DNA from: Alphaproteobacteria bacterium
Lineage (GTDB): Bacteria > Pseudomonadota > Alphaproteobacteria > Rhizobiales > Hyphomicrobiaceae
Assembly: GCA_024275435.1 (NCBI GenBank)
Contig: JAJRZC010000275.1
Coordinates: 1-39,187 of the forward strand
Reading direction: 5' to 3'
DNA: 39,187 nt
The notes under the pieces were generated by a model. It saw nothing but the letters and a program-made list of their open reading frames with translations. It was not told where the DNA came from and made no database searches. Of the stretch, positions 1-39,112 are shown piece by piece (position 1 is the stretch's first letter; each line of letters starts with the position of its first letter). Position numbers and translations under genes: made by a program.

Positions 1-490
1 CAGCAAGATTGATGGCTGCATGCGGTGGTGTTTTTAAAATCAACAGCTGAGCGCTGGCGCATAACAGGATGTAGCGTATCCGTTGATAACGATTGGGCAG
101 AGGGCGCTCCAAGTGCGCATCAATGATTTCGTCCAGAACAGGTTTTAATCGCAAAACCGTTGCGGCAATCAGGCGCGTAAGACCCTTGTCCGCACCGCTT
201 AGCGCCAAGCCGACATCACTTTCCAAGGCTTTGGAGCGCGCTTCGTCGAAGGCACGACCATTTCCGAGAACATCGAAGATAATTTTTTGTGCAAGTTCGC
301 GAGGCTCCAAGCCTGGAAGGCGGTTATTTGATACCATGGGTGAGAGTTGTTTAGCGCCGACTCTTTGTTGGATCTTTTTAGATTTTCCAGTGTGTTTCTT
401 TTTTCCACTGGCGGGCCTGTCGGTCCAATTCTTTTTTGGGGGTGTGGGGTTTGAGTTGCGCGTGCTATTGCCCGATTTATTACTGTTCAA
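1..490 (-). CDS. rsmB: 16S rRNA m5C967 methyltransferase RsmB, N-terminal part (runs off the left edge)
   Basis: The minus-strand reading frame is open to the window edge. It encodes a NusB-like RNA-binding domain, the N-terminal half of RsmB (Sun). Visible stretches include LPGLEPRELAQKIIFDVLGN, ADKGLTRLIAATVLR and LERPLPNRYQRI, the usual alphaproteobacterial RsmB pattern. The SAM-binding methyltransferase half lies outside the window. The start is inferred. No in-frame ATG precedes the conserved region except one just before it (codon at 337-339). A TTG at 488-490 has AAGGTGAG placed 6 nt upstream, and it would give a roughly 50-residue basic, disordered N-terminal extension like those of other alphaproteobacterial RsmB proteins. 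It lies 41 nt downstream of htpX in the same direction, so co-transcription is likely. The family methylates C967 of 16S rRNA. Confidence 0.85.
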   Translation of the reverse strand, partial: MNSNKSGNSTRNSNPTPPKKNWTDRPASGKKKHTGKSKKIQQRVGAKQLSPMVSNNRLPGLEPRELAQKIIFDVLGNGRAFDEARSKALESDVGLALSGADKGLTRLIAATVLRLKPVLDEIIDAHLERPLPNRYQRIRYILLCASAQLLILKTPPHAAINLA

Positions 491-16367: not shown

Positions 16368-19007
16368 TTAGAACTTCACCTTTACGCCACCATAGACCGA
16401 AACAGGTGGTGCGGGAAGAATGGTTCGCGGGTTCGTAAAGGACGTGATTGGTGCTACGCCACCATCTGCCACGACTTCGCTTGCCTGTTCTGCTTCGAAG
16501 AACGTGCCAAACAGGCCGTACTCACGATCGAAGACATTGTTGGCGAAGGCATAAAACTCGACATTTTTGTTGAGTTTGTATGATGTGTGCAAATCAATGC
16601 GGGTGTAGCCAGGAAGCGGCGTCGTGTCGTTTCCTTCATCGCCCAGGTAGAACTGATCGGAAGCTGCGACAAGTGTTGCGCCAACAGTCCACGCGTGTGT
16701 CACATCATAGAACACGCCAGCTTTAAAGCGATGCTCGGGTATACCTGGAAGCCTGTCACCAGCAACCACGTTTACGCAACCAGCGTCAGGATCGCCGGCA
16801 CAGGGAACAGCCGCAGGGTTGGAAGGAGAACTAAACTCGTTCGGCGTTTCAAATGTGGCGCGAACATAGGCATAGTTTCCATAAAATTCCCAAGGCCCGG
16901 TGTGATACTTGAGCCCGACTTCGATTCCCTGGCGAAGGGTGTCACCCGCGTTCAGGAAGAACCCGCGACCGGTTGTGTTTGATGACGTGAACAGAATGTC
17001 GTTGGTGTTCAAGGAGCGGAACCAACCAACATTATACTGGAAACGCTGATCGCCATCTGCGGAAACGAGAGTACCTTTCACACCGGCCTCAAAGGTCTCG
17101 GTCTCAACCTGATCAAGAGGAGGGTCATCCGTGAGGAAGCTCTCGACGGGACATGGGTTATCCGGATTGGCACAGGCCAGTTCGCCAGGTGTTGGGGCGC
17201 GGTTGGATTCCGCATAACTGCCATAGACGATCAAACCTTTATTGAACTCATAGGTGGCGCCAATGTTGGGGTTGAAAGCCTCGAAGGTGTGATTGCTTGT
17301 GATGTCGGGGAAGTTGCCATTGACATCGACAAGATCAACCATCGCGTAATTGTAGCGGCCACCAAAAGTTAAGGCGAGTTCGTTTGTCAGCTCGACGGTA
17401 TTAGAGAGATAGACGCCGACATACTCGGTGGTGACATCGACATCACGGGGTGCAAAATCATCCGGCTCACTAATGGTGATACCTGAGCCATTGACCACGA
17501 ACTTGTTGCCAATCTGACCGATTTCAGAGGTTGTCTTGTAGCGAACCGAACCGCGGTCATAACTGACGCCCACGAGGAACTGGTTTACAAAACCAAAGAG
17601 CTTGGCCTTTTCAACTGCCTGCAAGGTGACGCCCCAGCTTTCAGCCCTTTGAGAAATTCTGTCGATCACACCAATGGGCTCACCAACATCATCACCAAGG
17701 ATGGGGTTGCCATTGACGTCTTCGAGAGCTGCCAGTTGACCGTCCTCAAGCTCTTCTGAACGCACCGCATCGGGATCTAGTCCGTTCAGAGCGGCTGCAA
17801 CATTGGGGAACAAACCATCATCAACGGCCTGTTGGGCGACGTCTCCGCAATCGTCGCCTTCGAGCATATTGCCATCGACGAGATCGGAGCGGAATCTGCG
17901 GTAATAGGCCAAACCGGAAAATGTGAGTGTGTCTGTTGCTTTGATAGACGCATTGACCTGCGGCATCACCAGTTCAATATCCGTTGTTTGAGGTGACGTG
18001 AATGTCAATCCACGATCCACCGCCAACAGTTCAACTGGGGAAGCTGCCACCACACCCGCCGAGCTTTGGGCCATGGTTAAGTTGAAGTGCATTTCAACTG
18101 CGGAACCACGAAGACCGATATCGCCATAAAAGCGATCGATGCTGACTTCGGAAAAATCACGATAACCGTCGTCGAGAATCTTTTCGTAAGCAACATATGT
18201 GGAGGCATTGCCGAACATGGCACCGTGCTGGAGAGAAATCTGGCGACGACTGTTGGAGCCGCCCATGATATCGATTTCGGTGCCTTGATAGTTGAAACCG
18301 TCCTTCATAAGAATGGAAATACCACCACCGACGGCGTTGAGACCGTAGACGGGATTACCGGTGACCAAGGAAATATCACTGATGGCGTTGGAAGGAATAA
18401 CGTCGAAGAAGACGGTATCACCAAATACTTCGTTAATACGGGCACCATTTTGATAGACGGCAAATCCTTGCGGAAACCCGGTGAGCGAGCCGACGGAATA
18501 GCCGCGATACTCGATCTGAGAACGGAAGGTTGAGCCGGCTGCATCATTGATGATCAGGCCGGGAACGCTTTGCTGGAGAACCTGCTGCGGCTCGGGATTG
18601 CCGTATTTGGCAAAATCGGCGGCCGTTGTGGTGTGAGCTGTTGTTGGAATCTTGGAGGCATCAATAAGGGCACCCTCGTATTCACCACTCGTGCCACCTG
18701 CAGCCGGCGCTCCGGTTGAGGCTGTTGCAGAGGCTGTCGCCGATCCCGAGGACGTGGAAGAGCCGACGGGAGAGACGGGCACAGCCTTTTTCTTGGCGCG
18801 CGCCGCTGCCGTGCTTTTTGGCTTTTGAACAACTTCAACTGGTGGAAGCTCGACGTCGGCACTTTCATCTTCGACCAATGTTTCTGTGTCCACAGCTGCC
18901 GCTGGCGGAGCGTCTGTAGCTGGGGCATCGGCATCTTGAGCCAAAACAGCAAACGGAGCCCCCCCGATTGCGGCCACTGCCAGCGCCAATCTCCAAGTCA
19001 TTGTCAT
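16368..19007 (-). CDS. TonB-dependent outer-membrane receptor
   Basis: An 879-residue receptor that would import an unknown ligand using TonB/ExbBD energy. It has a signal peptide (LALAVAAIGGAPFAVLAQDA). An Ala/Pro/Ser-rich stretch contains LPPVEVVQ, a possible TonB box. A plug domain (about 125-250, with QSVPGLIINDAAG and NPVYGLNAVGGG) precedes a C-terminal barrel ending in VKVKF with the terminal Phe. The start was set at 19005-19007 because GGGGGAA lies 9 nt upstream and the signal peptide begins there; the frame is open 11 codons further. It is divergent from exbB-exbD-tonB and its companion, so a shared uptake system is likely. The sequence gives no clear substrate. Confidence 0.92.
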   Translation of the reverse strand: MTMTWRLALAVAAIGGAPFAVLAQDADAPATDAPPAAAVDTETLVEDESADVELPPVEVVQKPKSTAAARAKKKAVPVSPVGSSTSSGSATASATASTGAPAAGGTSGEYEGALIDASKIPTTAHTTTAADFAKYGNPEPQQVLQQSVPGLIINDAAGSTFRSQIEYRGYSVGSLTGFPQGFAVYQNGARINEVFGDTVFFDVIPSNAISDISLVTGNPVYGLNAVGGGISILMKDGFNYQGTEIDIMGGSNSRRQISLQHGAMFGNASTYVAYEKILDDGYRDFSEVSIDRFYGDIGLRGSAVEMHFNLTMAQSSAGVVAASPVELLAVDRGLTFTSPQTTDIELVMPQVNASIKATDTLTFSGLAYYRRFRSDLVDGNMLEGDDCGDVAQQAVDDGLFPNVAAALNGLDPDAVRSEELEDGQLAALEDVNGNPILGDDVGEPIGVIDRISQRAESWGVTLQAVEKAKLFGFVNQFLVGVSYDRGSVRYKTTSEIGQIGNKFVVNGSGITISEPDDFAPRDVDVTTEYVGVYLSNTVELTNELALTFGGRYNYAMVDLVDVNGNFPDITSNHTFEAFNPNIGATYEFNKGLIVYGSYAESNRAPTPGELACANPDNPCPVESFLTDDPPLDQVETETFEAGVKGTLVSADGDQRFQYNVGWFRSLNTNDILFTSSNTTGRGFFLNAGDTLRQGIEVGLKYHTGPWEFYGNYAYVRATFETPNEFSSPSNPAAVPCAGDPDAGCVNVVAGDRLPGIPEHRFKAGVFYDVTHAWTVGATLVAASDQFYLGDEGNDTTPLPGYTRIDLHTSYKLNKNVEFYAFANNVFDREYGLFGTFFEAEQASEVVADGGVAPITSFTNPRTILPAPPVSVYGGVKVKF

Positions 19008-19388
19008 TACTGTTATTCCCCCATGAGAACGCATATTCATTACTGATTCTTATTCGTGACCGGCTGTCTCATAATAAAAGAACGTGTGGCCATTTGTGTT
19101 TCAGAGATGTCACTGTTGACACAATGTCGTCAATGTTAGTTCTGTAGGACTTGTTCCCGTTACGTTATTACACTTGAAGCGTGTGGCCTAAGGGCATCAA
19201 AGATCGGGAACTTTTCCCAATGCGCTGTACTTAGTTATGTACTTTTATCGATAATGAGTTTGGTGGATTTCAAGAGCTGGTCATTTCGATACGCAAGCCT
19301 GAATTGCCGATACATGGCATCGGGTGGCCCCAGTTTTGCTTATTAGTGTAATGCGTGACGACTTGAAGCGAGTGATTTGGAGGTTCGT
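19008..19388. other. Divergent promoter region between the receptor gene and the exbB cluster
   Basis: About 380 bp without a gene. It contains a dyad with TTGAC/GTCAA ends (19116-19133), a 10-bp palindrome TTATCGATAA (19245-19254) and a widely spaced pair GTTCCCG/CGGGAAC. I could not place a canonical Fur or Irr site. Confidence 0.5.
19116..19133. promoter_or_regulatory. Candidate operator dyad upstream of the TonB-dependent receptor
   Basis: TTGACACAATGTCGTCAA has outer arms TTGAC/GTCAA and inner arms GACA/TGTC. It also reads TGA-N10-TCA, one base longer than the TGA-N9-TCA iron-responsive operator described for RirA. It sits about 110 nt upstream of the receptor start. Suggestive only. 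Confidence 0.25.
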
Positions 19389-19952
19389 TTGACTAGACTA
19401 GCGGTTCGTAAGCGTCGTATTGGGGCTGGAGTGCGTGAGGAGAGAATATCTCACCACCAATGGCTTTTCATAGCCTTTTCAGTTTTCGTGGCGAGTTTTG
19501 CTCTTGCGATTTTTTCATCGATGCAGGCTCATTCTCAAGAGGCAGCAGGAGCGACTACAGCTCAATCTGAAACCACAAGCCCGGCGAAAGATGCCACGGG
19601 AACTGTTGTGTCTATTCAGCTCAACAAGCTTGAGGAAGTGAAGGGTGGTTGTCGAGCCTATTTCGTTTTGGCTAACAAGACACAAAAACCTATAAAGACC
19701 TTGATCTTAGATCTCATCTTGTTCCGTACAGATGGGGTTATAGGAAAAAGGTTTTTTGCTGAAATGGCGCCGCTGCGGGCCAAATCCAAAAAACAGGTGA
19801 AATTATTTGCTCTCAATGGCATCAAGTGTTCGGAAGTGGGTAGCCTGCTGGTGAACGATGCCAAGGAATGCCGACATGAAGACGGAGTTATTGACCAGTG
19901 TTATTCCAGACTTGAAGTCTCTCACATTGGAAAAATTTCACTCTCCAAGTAA
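19389..19952 (+). CDS. Small exported protein with four Cys, companion of exbB
   Basis: A 187-residue protein with a basic N terminus, one hydrophobic segment (about 24-46, WLFIAFSVFVASFALAIF) and a likely cleavage after AHSQ. The exported domain is about 140 residues and has four cysteines (in GGCRAY, GIKCSE, KECRHE and DQCYSR) and the pattern CRAYFVLANKTQKPIKTL. It resembles small proteins next to exbB in other alphaproteobacteria, often annotated 'Tat pathway signal sequence domain protein'. That link is from memory, and no twin-arginine motif is clear here. The start is a TTG at 19389 with GGAGG 5 nt upstream. It ends 22 nt before exbB, so co-expression is likely. Function unknown. Confidence 0.75.
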   Translation: MTRLAVRKRRIGAGVREERISHHQWLFIAFSVFVASFALAIFSSMQAHSQEAAGATTAQSETTSPAKDATGTVVSIQLNKLEEVKGGCRAYFVLANKTQKPIKTLILDLILFRTDGVIGKRFFAEMAPLRAKSKKQVKLFALNGIKCSEVGSLLVNDAKECRHEDGVIDQCYSRLEVSHIGKISLSK

Positions 19953-19974
19953 ATTTTAAATTCGAGGTATCTGC

Positions 19975-20667
19975 GTGAACGAGACGATTGGCAACGCGGC
20001 CGCACATGATCTTTCGATCTGGGGCCTTGTCATGAATGCCGACCCTGTTGTGCAGGCGGTGATTGCGGGATTGGTTCTGGCATCCATCGTATGCTGGGCC
20101 ATCATTTTTGAAAAAATACTTCGCATGGTTGGCCTGGGACGGGACATGCGGGAGCTGGAAGCTGTGGCTGATCAAGGCGGTTTTAACGGCAAAGAGCGCT
20201 CGAAGATTGCTCAAGCTGTGAATGCTGCGGTGGTTTCTGAAGCTAGAGAGGGTGCTGCTGCTGACGAGGACCAGAACGATATGCGGATGCGATTCGAGCG
20301 GGCCATGCGAGGCCGGCTTAAGCGTGAACTGAAACGCATCGAAGGCGGCCTGCCATTTCTTGCGACTGTTGGATCTGCTGCTCCCTTTATCGGCTTGTTT
20401 GGAACCGTGTGGGGTATCATGAACAGCTTTACTTCTATTGCCAGAGCCAAGGATACAAGTCTTGCCGTTGTGGCTCCGGGCATTGCGGAAGCCTTGTTTG
20501 CCACGGCTCTGGGGCTGGCAGCTGCGATCCCTGCGGTTATCGCCTACAATCAGTTTGCTGTGATGATGGGCAAACGTTCTGAAGGTATGGGGGCGGCAAT
20601 TTCGGTTATTGCGAAAAAGCTGGCACGATCCGGGTTTAGTCAAAACAAGGCAGGAGGGGCAAGCTGA
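19975..20667 (+). CDS. exbB: TonB-system energiser ExbB (MotA/TolQ/ExbB family)
   Basis: A 230-residue inner-membrane proton-channel subunit. It has three membrane helices (about 24-48, 123-145 and 165-188) and the conserved [20 protein letters not shown] and [20 protein letters not shown]. The start is GTG at 19975 with GAGG 7 nt upstream. Its stop overlaps the exbD start as TGATG, indicating translational coupling. The family works as an ExbB5-ExbD2 complex that drives TonB. Confidence 0.94.
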
Positions 20668-21149
20668 TGGCAATGTCGGTTAAACCTTCCGGTGGCGGCG
20701 ATGATTTTGATGATGATGACGCTTATCAGCCAATTGCTGAGATTAACATCACACCATTTGTTGATGTGATGTTGGTTTTGCTCATCATCTTCATGGTGGC
20801 GGCACCGCTGATGGTGGCCGGCGTTCCTGTTGATCTGCCGAATAATTCTGCTGCCAAGCTGACACGTCCCAAAAAGCCGATCATTGTTTCGTTGCAAGCT
20901 GATGGAGGGCTATTTTTGCGCAAGGAACAGGTGACGCCAGGCGCTTTGGTGTACACACTTTCCAGGTTGCGAGCGAGAGAAGGCGATACTATTGTCTACG
21001 TTCGGGCTGATAAGTCCCGGCCATATGGCGAAGTCATGGAGCTTTTGGGAAAGGTCGGCGAAAGCGGCTATCAAAGAATTTCACTACTTTCACAACCGAA
21101 TACGGGGCAAGGCGCGCAGGTGTTTGATGCACCGGCATCGAGAAAATAG
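20667..21149 (+). CDS. exbD: TonB-system protein ExbD
   Basis: A 160-residue single-pass protein. The N terminus is acidic (GDDFDDDDA), followed by INITPFVDVMLVLLIIFMV with the conserved membrane Asp33 used in proton transfer. The periplasmic domain carries PIIVSLQADGGLFL and VRADKSRPYGEVMELLGKV. AGGAGGGG precedes the ATG inside the exbB end. Confidence 0.94.
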   Translation: MAMSVKPSGGGDDFDDDDAYQPIAEINITPFVDVMLVLLIIFMVAAPLMVAGVPVDLPNNSAAKLTRPKKPIIVSLQADGGLFLRKEQVTPGALVYTLSRLRAREGDTIVYVRADKSRPYGEVMELLGKVGESGYQRISLLSQPNTGQGAQVFDAPASRK

Positions 21150-21160
21150 ACTTCGAAACA

Positions 21161-21892
21161 ATGCAACGGTCTGACATGCCTTTTTTGAAATTCATAGCCT
21201 TCTTGTTGTCTGTGGGAGCTCACGCAGCACTCGCTGTTGCGTTCGTTGCAGACTACCAGGGCACGGAGCGTCAGATATCGTTTTATGATGGCGAAGGTGA
21301 TGACCAGCTGTTGATTGATTCTTCCATTGTCATTGAGGGCGTTGCGAGCTTGGGAACTGACATTGAAACAGTCCAGGCCGTTGATGAGGACCCGCAAGAA
21401 GCGATCGAAGCTGCTGAAGTTGTGGAGCCTGTCGAAGAGCAGGAGATCGACCAAGTCATTTCCGCCAAGGCCGAGCCGGTGGATGAAAGCGAAGTTCTAC
21501 AAGAGGTGGTAGAGCCTGTGAAACCTGAAGAGGTTGCACAGATTGCACAAGCTGAGCAAATTGTTGTTGAGCAGAAAATAGCTTCTACGGGCAAGCAGCA
21601 AGGTGGCGATACGACCAAACGCGATCGTCACTTTGGAAAGATCTCAACGCGAATTCGCAAGTTCGTCATCAACCCGAGCACACGCCAAAAGGGGACAGCC
21701 GTTGTTCGATTTAAGGTGGACCCAAGTGGGGAGTTGCTGTCACGTGAAATCTTAAAAAGTTCCGGTTCGAAGCGCTTGGACCGGGCTGCGTTAAAGTCAA
21801 TTGATCGAGCGGCTCCGTTCCCGCCCTTTCCGGAAGGTTCGATTACACATGCGGCCGTAATAAAGATGAAGTTTAACTTTTCAACGCGCTAG
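21161..21892 (+). CDS. tonB: TonB energy-transducing protein
   Basis: A 243-residue protein with an N-terminal anchor (about 7-29, FLKFIAFLLSVGAHAALAVA with the conserved SVGAH-type His). Its long periplasmic linker is rich in Glu and Val rather than the classic Pro-Lys repeats. The TonB C-terminal domain (about 160-243) includes GTAVVRFKVDPSGELL and SGSKRLDRAALKSI. It starts 11 nt after exbD; another in-frame ATG at 21176 is possible. The stop is only 6 nt from the stop of the convergent SDR gene, with no terminator between them. Confidence 0.93.
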   Translation: MQRSDMPFLKFIAFLLSVGAHAALAVAFVADYQGTERQISFYDGEGDDQLLIDSSIVIEGVASLGTDIETVQAVDEDPQEAIEAAEVVEPVEEQEIDQVISAKAEPVDESEVLQEVVEPVKPEEVAQIAQAEQIVVEQKIASTGKQQGGDTTKRDRHFGKISTRIRKFVINPSTRQKGTAVVRFKVDPSGELLSREILKSSGSKRLDRAALKSIDRAAPFPPFPEGSITHAAVIKMKFNFSTR

Positions 21893-37258: not shown

Positions 37259-37819
37259 TCAACTGCTGGTTTTGAGCCCCATTTTCATGTTGTTGAGTTT
37301 GGTTCTCAAAGATGAATCGACCATACGGCTTCCAAACTTGACAATAAGTCCGCCTAGAATTTCGGGTTCGACGGTTGTGTCGAGATCCACATCTTTGCCA
37401 ATGGCTGATTTTAGAGTTTCCTTGAGGCTCGCAATTTGCGCCTCGCTCAAGGGAATTGCGCTGGTTACCTGGGCGGTGATCTCACCACGAGCATCGGCGC
37501 TTAAAGCCTTGAATGCTTTGATAATATCTGTGGCCGCAGACAAGCGTCGGTTTTTTGCAATGAGCAAGAAGAAATTTGAAGCCAAGCCACCAATGTCTGT
37601 GGTTTTCAGGACGGCTTGCAGGGCCTTTTGTTGCTCATCAGACGAAAAGACCGGGCTCTTCACCAGGCGTTTAAAATCGTCGCTGGCCTCATAAATGGCC
37701 TGGAATGTATCGAGATCCGATTCTACCTTGGCGAGTTCGCCTTGTTCATTGGCAAGCCCGAAAAGTGCTCCGGCGTAACGGCCGGGCATGCTGGCCATGA
37801 TAGAGTCTGCTGTTGCCAC
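37259..37819 (-). CDS. atpH: F1 ATP synthase delta subunit
   Basis: A 186-residue peripheral-stalk subunit that links F1 to Fo. It begins with the helical domain MASMPGRYAGALFGLANEQG and ends GGLIVKFGSRMVDSSLRTKL. The start chosen is GTG at 37817-37819, with GAGAG 8 nt upstream, giving exactly the usual alphaproteobacterial length. An ATG five codons earlier is the alternative. It is the first gene of atpHAGDC; the Fo genes are elsewhere, as is normal for this class. Confidence 0.93.
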   Translation of the reverse strand: MATADSIMASMPGRYAGALFGLANEQGELAKVESDLDTFQAIYEASDDFKRLVKSPVFSSDEQQKALQAVLKTTDIGGLASNFFLLIAKNRRLSAATDIIKAFKALSADARGEITAQVTSAIPLSEAQIASLKETLKSAIGKDVDLDTTVEPEILGGLIVKFGSRMVDSSLRTKLNNMKMGLKTSS

Positions 37820-38407
37820 GTCGTATGCTCTCATCTGCCCGATTGGGCGAGTAAAAAACGATTAAAGCCCGTAAGGGCCATGCGGACATGAATACACCGC
37901 GCAAGGCTTCCGGACAGTCCCTAATAAACTGCCTTCGCCTCCCACGATGGGAAAGACTTACCCGTTTCGGGATGATTGCGACCGCGAAGCGATCAATTCT
38001 TCGTAACGAGCTTCAGGCGTGATCTAGCATGTGATTGTCTGCGCCACAACGGGTTGTGAACCTTCAGATTGGTGCTTTTTTGCCGCAACTGGTTTCAACA
38101 ATCAAATCTGGAGCCGTGGGCAAGGCTCACTTCTCGTTTTTTTCGGCTGTATCAGATGACGGAACTCATACCAATAGGCACCTTTTTAATTCTTTTTGTC
38201 AGCATACTGATTTGAGGTTCTACGCACTGAAAGGGCGCAAGATCCAGCTTAAATTGCTTACATGAACGTCAGTTAAACTGTTCCTTCAGAGGGGGTTCAG
38301 GGCGGAAATGGCTAAGTGGCGACATCACACGCTTGATGTGTGGGCCTCAGTTAAGGGCTCGAAACAAATGACCGGAGAAAATATCCGGCCTGAAGGGGAT
38401 CACAGCC
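37820..38407. other. Intergenic region between atpH and the Arg-rich protein gene
   Basis: About 590 bp divergent region. It must contain the promoters for atpHAGDC and for the downstream gene. A plus-strand frame at 38035-38265 has no ribosome-binding site or family and is not called. Visible dyads are GCCC-gatt-GGGC near 37838 just before atpH, CAGTT-A-AACTG (38270-38280), ACATCA/TGATGT (38322-38339) and CCGGA/TCCGG (38372-38388). The last two are in the leader of the Arg-rich gene. Confidence 0.5.
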
Positions 38408-39022
38408 ATGACCAACAAAATCAAAATTACGAGCTTGATGATTGGTGCCGCCATCGTTTCTTTGAGCGTGGTGCCACTGACCACAGCTGCAAACGCAGGT
38501 GGCGCTTACAATCATGGAAGAGCCGCTCTCAAACAGGATGTTCAAGGCGTAAATTCAGCCAGGATCAACCATAACGCTGCAAGCCGCGCTGAGAGACAAG
38601 CAAAGCGCCGAGCAGCAAAGAAAAAAGAGCTTGCTGCAAAGACCAAGCGCCAATCAAAAGCAACTCGAAAAGCTCAACGTCGTATGGCGAATGCTGAAAG
38701 ACGTGCCGATCGTCGAAGTCTTACGAGAGCCGAGAGGCGTGCTGAACGACGCATGGCAAACGCCGAAAGACGCGCTGACCGGCGTCGTTTCAGACGCTCC
38801 ATGAGGCAAGCAGACCGTCGTCAACGTATGGCTGCAGAACGAAGAGCGGAGCGTCGTTGGGCTCGGGCTGAGCGTCGCGCTGATCGCCGCTATAGCCAAC
38901 GTTCGTATCCTCATACGCAACGGAGCCGTAAGCGCAATCGGATCGGACCAGCTGCTGTTGCTATTGGTGCGGGTATTGTCGCCCTGGCCATTCTGGCGGC
39001 TAGCTCAAGAAAAGGACACTAA
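38408..39022 (+). CDS. Secreted Arg-rich repeat protein with a C-terminal hydrophobic helix
   Basis: A 204-residue protein I cannot assign to a family. It has a good signal peptide (LMIGAAIVSLSVVPLTTAANA, cleavage about residue 30) and a basic linker. Residues 91-161 contain about 31 arginines among 71, built from an AERRADRR-type unit; RRMANAERRADRR occurs at 91-103 and 114-126, and a variant, RRWARAERRADRR, at 149-161. A hydrophobic C-terminal helix (about 180-198) ends in SSRKGH. GAAGGGG lies 8 nt before the ATG and a strong terminator follows. The two exact protein repeats differ at 10 of 13 codons, all synonymously, so the protein sequence appears selected. Binding to envelope polyanions is only an inference. 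Confidence 0.85.
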   Translation: MTNKIKITSLMIGAAIVSLSVVPLTTAANAGGAYNHGRAALKQDVQGVNSARINHNAASRAERQAKRRAAKKKELAAKTKRQSKATRKAQRRMANAERRADRRSLTRAERRAERRMANAERRADRRRFRRSMRQADRRQRMAAERRAERRWARAERRADRRYSQRSYPHTQRSRKRNRIGPAAVAIGAGIVALAILAASSRKGH

Positions 39023-39074: not shown

Positions 39075-39112
39075 GACCGGATCTGCGCGAAAGCAGGTCC
39101 GGTCTTTTTTTT
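39075..39112 (+). terminator. Rho-independent terminator of the Arg-rich protein gene
   Basis: GACCGGATCTGC / GCAGGTCCGGTC, 12 bp with one G-U pair, 6-nt loop (gcgaaa), followed by eight T. It is 53 nt after the stop codon. Confidence 0.95.

Follow-up and report, generated by a model that had tools for sequence, protein, structure and literature searches.

An atpH-linked gene encoding a putative exported protein with a long arginine-rich middle

The protein reported here resembles in layout the BA14K proteins (PF07886), which are termed poorly characterised in passages of two papers (PMC6304850, PMC9022086). Excerpts of separate studies place a BA14K gene among the three strongest sigma-EcfG targets of B. 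abortus (PMC12354254), report such a gene as needed for normal spleen colonisation (PMC10746171) and, in a table, give one as strongly heat-induced in M. loti (PMC3989490). BA14K is listed as lectin-like in a table entry of PMC6304850; "lectin-like" here refers to that entry, a literature search for the lectin-like 14-kDa Brucella work having given nothing.

The gene and its local signals

The window is the whole stretch of DNA that was analysed, 39,187 nucleotides in length. The gene for the arginine-rich protein (hereafter the window protein) and its surroundings comprise the following features, given in window positions.

38408..39022, plus strand: whole gene of the putative exported, arginine-rich protein; open reading frame with an ATG start, 204 aa
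38393..38399, plus strand: ribosome-binding-site-like AAGGGGA, 8 nt ahead of the ATG, read from the sequence
38408..38497, plus strand: signal peptide, residues 1-30 (...TTAANA/GG), with a presumed cleavage site; A28/A30 invariant in 21 sequences
38552..38896, plus strand: predicted continuous helix, residues 49-163, from AlphaFold2 and composition
38678..38890, plus strand: densest arginine block by composition, residues 91-161, with the identical 13-mers
38927..39019, plus strand: C-terminal basic flank and hydrophobic Gly/Ala-rich helix, residues 174-204, from a profile match and a predicted helix at 180-201
39075..39112, plus strand: intrinsic terminator, 12-pair stem and T8
37259..37834, minus strand: atpH (ATP synthase delta), divergent neighbour and synteny anchor, 573 nt from the gene

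The earlier note on this DNA had read from it a signal peptide, a hydrophobic C-terminal helix, a ribosome-binding site belonging to the gene itself and a strong terminator, and these readings stood up. The N terminus has an A-x-A site and matches the profile of the relatives described below, the C terminus matches their profile and is predicted to be helical at residues 180-201, and both the AAGGGGA and the 12-pair stem with its T8 are present. Several relatives have GAAGGGGA-like stretches ahead of the gene, comparable to the AAGGGGA of the window. The protein-coding nature of the frame was likewise borne out, as its two ends each align with the relatives in a single frame, and on this sequence evidence the gene is real. 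Its unusual composition and the draft state of the genome (424 contigs) might instead point to a spurious open reading frame or a frameshift product. This is extremely improbable given that the ends are conserved in one frame on either side of the arginine block and that the ribosome-binding-site-like motif and the terminator are in place.

No sigma-70-like promoters were found upstream of the gene. A sigma-EcfG promoter, an idea taken from the BA14K literature, was rejected: the pattern occurs in one of 36 upstream regions and the window gene lacks it, so that its promoter lends no support to stress induction. Three matches to Rfam all lie far under the gathering scores. A hairpin, CCGGAGAAAATATCCGG, occupies window positions 38370-38390 directly ahead of the ribosome-binding-site-like motif; it scores as terminator-like on the minus strand and could be a structure of the 5' leader.

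The neighbours of the gene look like housekeeping genes. Elsewhere in the window, at 16368-21892, a TonB-dependent-receptor-like gene (16368-19040, minus strand) lies near an ExbB/TolQ-like gene (19975-20667) and a TonB-like gene (21161-21892), all named by eye.

Short exported relatives upstream of atpH

The stretch upstream of atpH was read in 89 loci (own locus included) out of 99 genomes with an atpH match; the comparison set includes one genome of the window genus, and the family contains Hyphomicrobium. A direct search with the window protein gave matches at E<=0.1 in 39 of the 103 family genomes, for the most part arginine-rich noise. When these were compared with the atpH loci by contig and position, G056 and G059 left aside, only the matches in G090, G092 and G093, besides the gene itself, adjoined atpH, and these first leads are short open reading frames between priA and atpH. 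The remaining matches, not beside atpH, were taken as low-complexity noise. When the stretches upstream of atpH were filtered for proteins with a signal peptide and a C-terminal hydrophobic helix, many short proteins sharing the layout of the window protein were obtained.

An alignment of 21 sequences, in which the window protein is 23-36% identical to its 20 relatives, has five invariant columns: M1, A28, A30, A185 and G187. A28 and A30 are the putative signal-peptidase site, and A185 and G187 lie in the C-terminal helix. A leave-one-out profile built from the 20 relatives, the window protein excluded, matches the window frame with E 6e-9 and none of the other stop-to-stop frames of the window (800 in all) at E<=10; the match carries a bias of 27 bits and a best single domain of only 2.7 bits. 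The score of 32.8 bits for the whole protein rises to 40.3 bits when the arginine block is removed, and the block alone scores -11.7 bits. Residues 1-33 score 21.1 bits and residues 161-204 score 26.7 bits, in neither case equalled in 1000 shuffles. For residues 161-204, shuffling only the hydrophobic core also gave no score as high in 1000 trials (maximum 23.9). The window frame is also the only one of the 800 matched by a profile of the C-terminal half (E 1.4e-5). The N-terminal match is weak when taken alone because signal peptides resemble one another; it is the C-terminal helix and the gene position that, on the sequence comparisons, carry the case for kinship. Thus, we conclude that the window protein very likely belongs with the short atpH-linked exported proteins.

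Clear relatives (E<1e-15) are present at 27 of the 88 other atpH loci. Twenty of these are in the profile and seven (G034, G037, G040, G064, G065, G070 and G086) are outside it. A further eight loci match at E<0.01, and 53 have no match, many of these with stretches that end short of priA. All 35 matches lie on the strand opposite atpH. Among the clear relatives, 15 start less than 500 nt from atpH and 12 at 1.05-2.0 kb, with other open reading frames intervening at some loci. Six of the eight weak matches are BA14K-type by eye (G006, G007, G008, G073, G074 and G075). Of the other two, that of G096 is a short protein next to a BA14K-type gene and that of G035 is a fragment. In a tree of atpH the window genome has a long branch and clusters with G088 and genus g7, whose 10 loci have no match in the stretch read, most of these stretches ending before priA. 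The presence of the gene on this tree needs 11 changes, against a mean of 27 after shuffling. The pattern, as read from the tree, speaks against simple orthology of the window gene and the short relatives.

The 27 relatives are 93-118 aa in length; 26 of them were also read as whole open reading frames from the likely ATG, with an earlier ATG taken for L106. Their mature parts, counted from a cut at residue 30, have a net charge of +5 to +16, except for L044 (0). The middle of these proteins is a stretch of roughly 40-55 Gly/His/Tyr/Arg-rich residues, with a composition that varies from protein to protein; the window protein instead has 115 residues free of Gly and Pro. G086 (L102) is intermediate, with an arginine-rich linker, a net charge of +16 and KRNRTGK ahead of the helix. 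A profile of the short relatives has no sequence match in the PDB. Their sub-cut-off Pfam matches (COX6C, CPP1-like, DUF4179 and Oxidored_q2) are weak and were not used; neither was the OsmB match of a single relative, L081, which spans the helix of that protein at E 0.011 and scores 15.7 bits, the cut-off being 98.

In the twelve clear relatives for which the stretch extends to priA, the gene sits between atpH and priA. The contig of the window ends 165 nt past the stop codon of the gene, and priA of this genome reaches its stop codon right where a second contig ends; the two contigs do not overlap. By analogy with the twelve loci, the order priA-gene-atpH is likely in the window genome. The atpH-priA gap of G086 also holds a 447-aa open reading frame. 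At L099 (G096) a BA14K-type gene, recognised by eye, adjoins a short family-type gene in this gap, perhaps through duplication. In genus g15 (L035, L042, L045 and L047) the slot is occupied by another kind of protein (139-180 aa) that contains ...LTP.RSPHW.D..AS.P.PG..., has a C-terminal hydrophobic stretch and shows no obvious signal peptide.

The window genome encodes a second exported-looking basic repeat protein of 118 aa on contig C36 (L162:2216-2572, minus strand). It has a signal peptide followed by repeats such as RRLGHSNNRY, and lacks the C-terminal helix. The profile of the relatives aligns with its positions 1-70 (E 5e-7), and it has no match to a Pfam family.

BA14K proteins are defined by a C-terminal motif of 30 residues, which is absent from the window protein; because of this absence, the window protein is, on its sequence, not a BA14K member. 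The motif has no match at E<=0.1 in the window genome. Of three slot proteins tested against PF07886, L059 and L100 are over the cut-off and L118 (G073) is not. At E<=0.1 the profile of the C-terminal helix also matches the BA14K-type L100, L114, L059, L115, L110, L060 and L104, and it misses L118, L119 and the BA14K-type frame of L099. The full profile misses the BA14K-type L059, L060 and L119 at E<0.01. At E<=0.001 it matches 44 of 397 order genomes, the family included, and outside the family it reaches a minority of the genomes. Of its better matches there, three were looked at and each carries PF07886, so that the short atpH-linked proteins resemble BA14K-type proteins that lack the terminal motif.

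The arginine-rich middle

Residues 49-163 (115 residues) contain 38 Arg, 26 Ala and 8 Lys, no Gly and no Pro, for a net charge of +33. Cut at residue 30, the mature protein would have a net charge of +42 and a pI of 12. AlphaFold2 draws one helix over residues 49-163, with block means of 87-98 over residues 61-160, and a second helix at 180-201 (pTM 0.35). Since no relative aligns with the arginine block and AlphaFold2 readily draws long helices for sequence of this kind, the lack of Gly and Pro is a firmer fact than the modelled helix. Based on both, residues 49-163 probably form a helical rod, and a helix of 115 residues would be about 17 nm long. The model of the relative L093 has a mean pLDDT of 57; residues 34-70 mostly score under 50, and helices appear only at the two ends (3-31 and 77-99). 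Foldseek returned no match. ER/K single alpha-helices are long helices in which E and R/K are roughly balanced, whereas residues 49-163 of the window protein have 13 acidic against 46 basic residues.

The densest part, residues 91-161, is 31/71 Arg (43.7%) with a net charge of +20, which confirms the block of about 44% arginine reported in the earlier note. The identity of residues 91-103 and 114-126 (both RRMANAERRADRR) is confirmed as well, as are their 10 differing codons out of 13, through 10 nucleotide differences that are all synonymous. The longest exact protein repeat in the block, 13 residues, exceeds the maximum of 8 seen in 500 block shuffles. The periodicity is weaker than the word "repeats" had suggested: the best lag identity, 0.39, is equalled by 68 of 5000 shuffles and is only moderately above chance. 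One antisense frame likewise has a 10-residue repeat.

The codon differences had been taken as a sign of selection on the protein rather than recent duplication of the DNA. The second half of this argument stands. TRF at score 30 finds no tandem repeats in the DNA of the gene, by which a recent tandem duplication is rejected, and the longest exact DNA repeat within the block is 8 nt. Random synonymous choice would give 8.2 differing codons (5-95%: 6-11), so the 10 observed are saturated synonymous sites, which are compatible with old repeats or with convergence. The inference of selection is weakened, because the pair was picked for its identical residues; that all differences are synonymous follows from this choice and overstates the case. 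A tally of similar 8-mers was set aside for the same selection bias.

We found no arginine-rich orthologue in 103 family genomes (E<=0.1, among the first candidates scored, up to 30 per genome), in 397 order genomes (E<=0.001, among the first 7 or 8 candidates per genome) or in 385 class and 398 phylum genomes (E<=1e-4, again the first 7 or 8 per genome); these samples overlap. Two order matches, G268 and G385, contain stops and were dropped. A pattern-based scan of named genomes gave no close relative of the window protein, and a literature search gave no Hyphomicrobium arginine-rich protein with a signal peptide. The window protein matches no Pfam family at E<=1, and its six NCBIfam matches, all far under cut-off, were taken as chance through composition or the signal peptide. 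The earlier remark that no described family has this layout therefore applies to the arginine-rich middle, which has no relatives in the genomes searched and no Pfam or NCBIfam match over cut-off. It does not apply to the signal peptide and the C-terminal helix, which are common to the short atpH-linked exported proteins.

Such a picture could arise if the linker need only be polar and the arginine block grew without new function, as a neutral low-complexity expansion. The lack of an orthologue with the block in the genomes searched, the varying linker composition of the relatives and the weak periodicity, with 68 of 5000 shuffles as high, are all in line with this. However, 13 residues were kept despite saturated synonymous sites, so that any expansion was not recent, and 115 residues without Gly or Pro would not be expected from the drift of a Gly-rich linker. 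We therefore regard a neutral origin as unlikely.

The middle domain of TolA is a long, charged, Ala-rich helix in the periplasm. TolA is also the best sub-threshold NCBIfam match of the window protein, aligning residues 54-160 with profile positions 142-251, which we take to be that helical middle domain. The helix of the window protein might thus be a periplasmic ruler or strut, its charge merely keeping it soluble and extended, and the predicted length of about 17 nm over 115 residues would suit this role. The match, at 12.7 bits against a cut-off of 59.45, is nevertheless probably driven by composition, the far end of the helix carries no second domain and the strut is absent from the relatives. 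A spacer function is, in our view, improbable.

A candidate function and comparison with known systems

We tentatively favour a reading in which the window protein is a divergent member of the short atpH-linked exported proteins, its linker replaced by an Arg/Ala helix, and acts as a cationic rod that binds the envelope. A short, mostly basic, Sec-exported protein would have had its flexible Gly/His/Tyr/Arg-rich linker swapped for a Gly/Pro-free Arg/Ala helix. Signal peptidase I would cut after Ala30, and the mature protein (net +42) would form a cationic rod some 17 nm long, located in the periplasm or on the cell surface and anchored in one of the two membranes by its C-terminal Gly/Ala-rich helix. 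The charge could bind anionic envelope polymers (LPS, an acidic polysaccharide or a wall-linked polymer), and the polymer-bound rod would brace or shield the envelope.

The binding step is a possibility we advance with some doubt. It is drawn by analogy from the envelope and heat-stress links of BA14K and from the rings that SlyB forms in the stressed outer membrane. SlyB carries a glycine zipper. Its oligomerisation into such rings is described in one source (PMC13067283). Metal binding through His would be possible in the His-rich relatives, which reach 17% His, and fits the window protein poorly, given its 2% His.

The extreme charge (net +42, pI 12) could also belong to a secreted cationic protein active on nucleic acids or membranes, either a binder of extracellular DNA or a glycine-zipper antimicrobial like CdzC/CdzD of Caulobacter. 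As excerpted, PMC5380434 documents glycine-zipper killing proteins in Alphaproteobacteria, and places cdzC and cdzD with type I secretion genes and gives them RTX-like leaders. The window protein has a Sec-type signal peptide and housekeeping-looking neighbours, on which grounds the bacteriocin was set aside, and we consider this class of function very unlikely.

The class search also gave an exported-looking protein of 300 aa in G479 (L164:1483-2382, plus strand), which has PF05433 and PF16998 over cut-off and His-rich flanks around its arginine block. A paralogue matches it only over 173-295, a match that leaves out the block; G479 is the sole genome of its family in the comparison. As a speculative and rather unlikely extension, (A/I-E-R-R)n Gly/Pro-free arginine rods may be a swappable module gained more than once by zipper-anchored exported envelope proteins of Alphaproteobacteria (the window protein and that of G479), each time stiffening a flexible anchor to give a cationic rod that reaches across the periplasm or capsule and clamps anionic polymer.

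The novelty of the window protein is confined to its middle, the long, Gly/Pro-free predicted arginine helix, as the ends belong to a recognisable kind; it reveals no new system. If our preferred reading of a rod-bearing member of the short proteins is true, a flexible linker has given way to a long and rigid cationic helix, with the two ends and the gene position retained, which would be a natural experiment on the role of the linker in BA14K-type envelope proteins. The protein also raises the question of how some 40 net positive charges are moved through Sec.

Compared with known systems, the window protein is set apart from TolA by a different anchor and by lacking a C-terminal globular domain. 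SlyB and OsmB are glycine-zipper lipoproteins, and none of the cut-offs for such proteins is exceeded by the window protein, which likewise has no curated match to the glycine zipper 2TM (PF05433). With the G479 protein it shares a signal peptide and an arginine-rich block, there (ERR[IVL])n, placed ahead of a glycine zipper, but the G479 protein has a glycine zipper 2TM and a C-terminal 17 kDa surface-antigen domain. With BA14K (PF07886) it shares a signal peptide, a basic stretch and a similar hydrophobic helix, and in some genera BA14K-type genes occupy the same slot. The short atpH-linked proteins (for example L108, L093, L082 and L067) have in common with it the A-x-A signal peptide, a basic linker, the C-terminal Gly/Ala-rich helix and the orientation divergent from atpH, whereas they are 93-118 aa in length with a flexible linker and the window protein has 204 aa with a Gly/Pro-free arginine helix.
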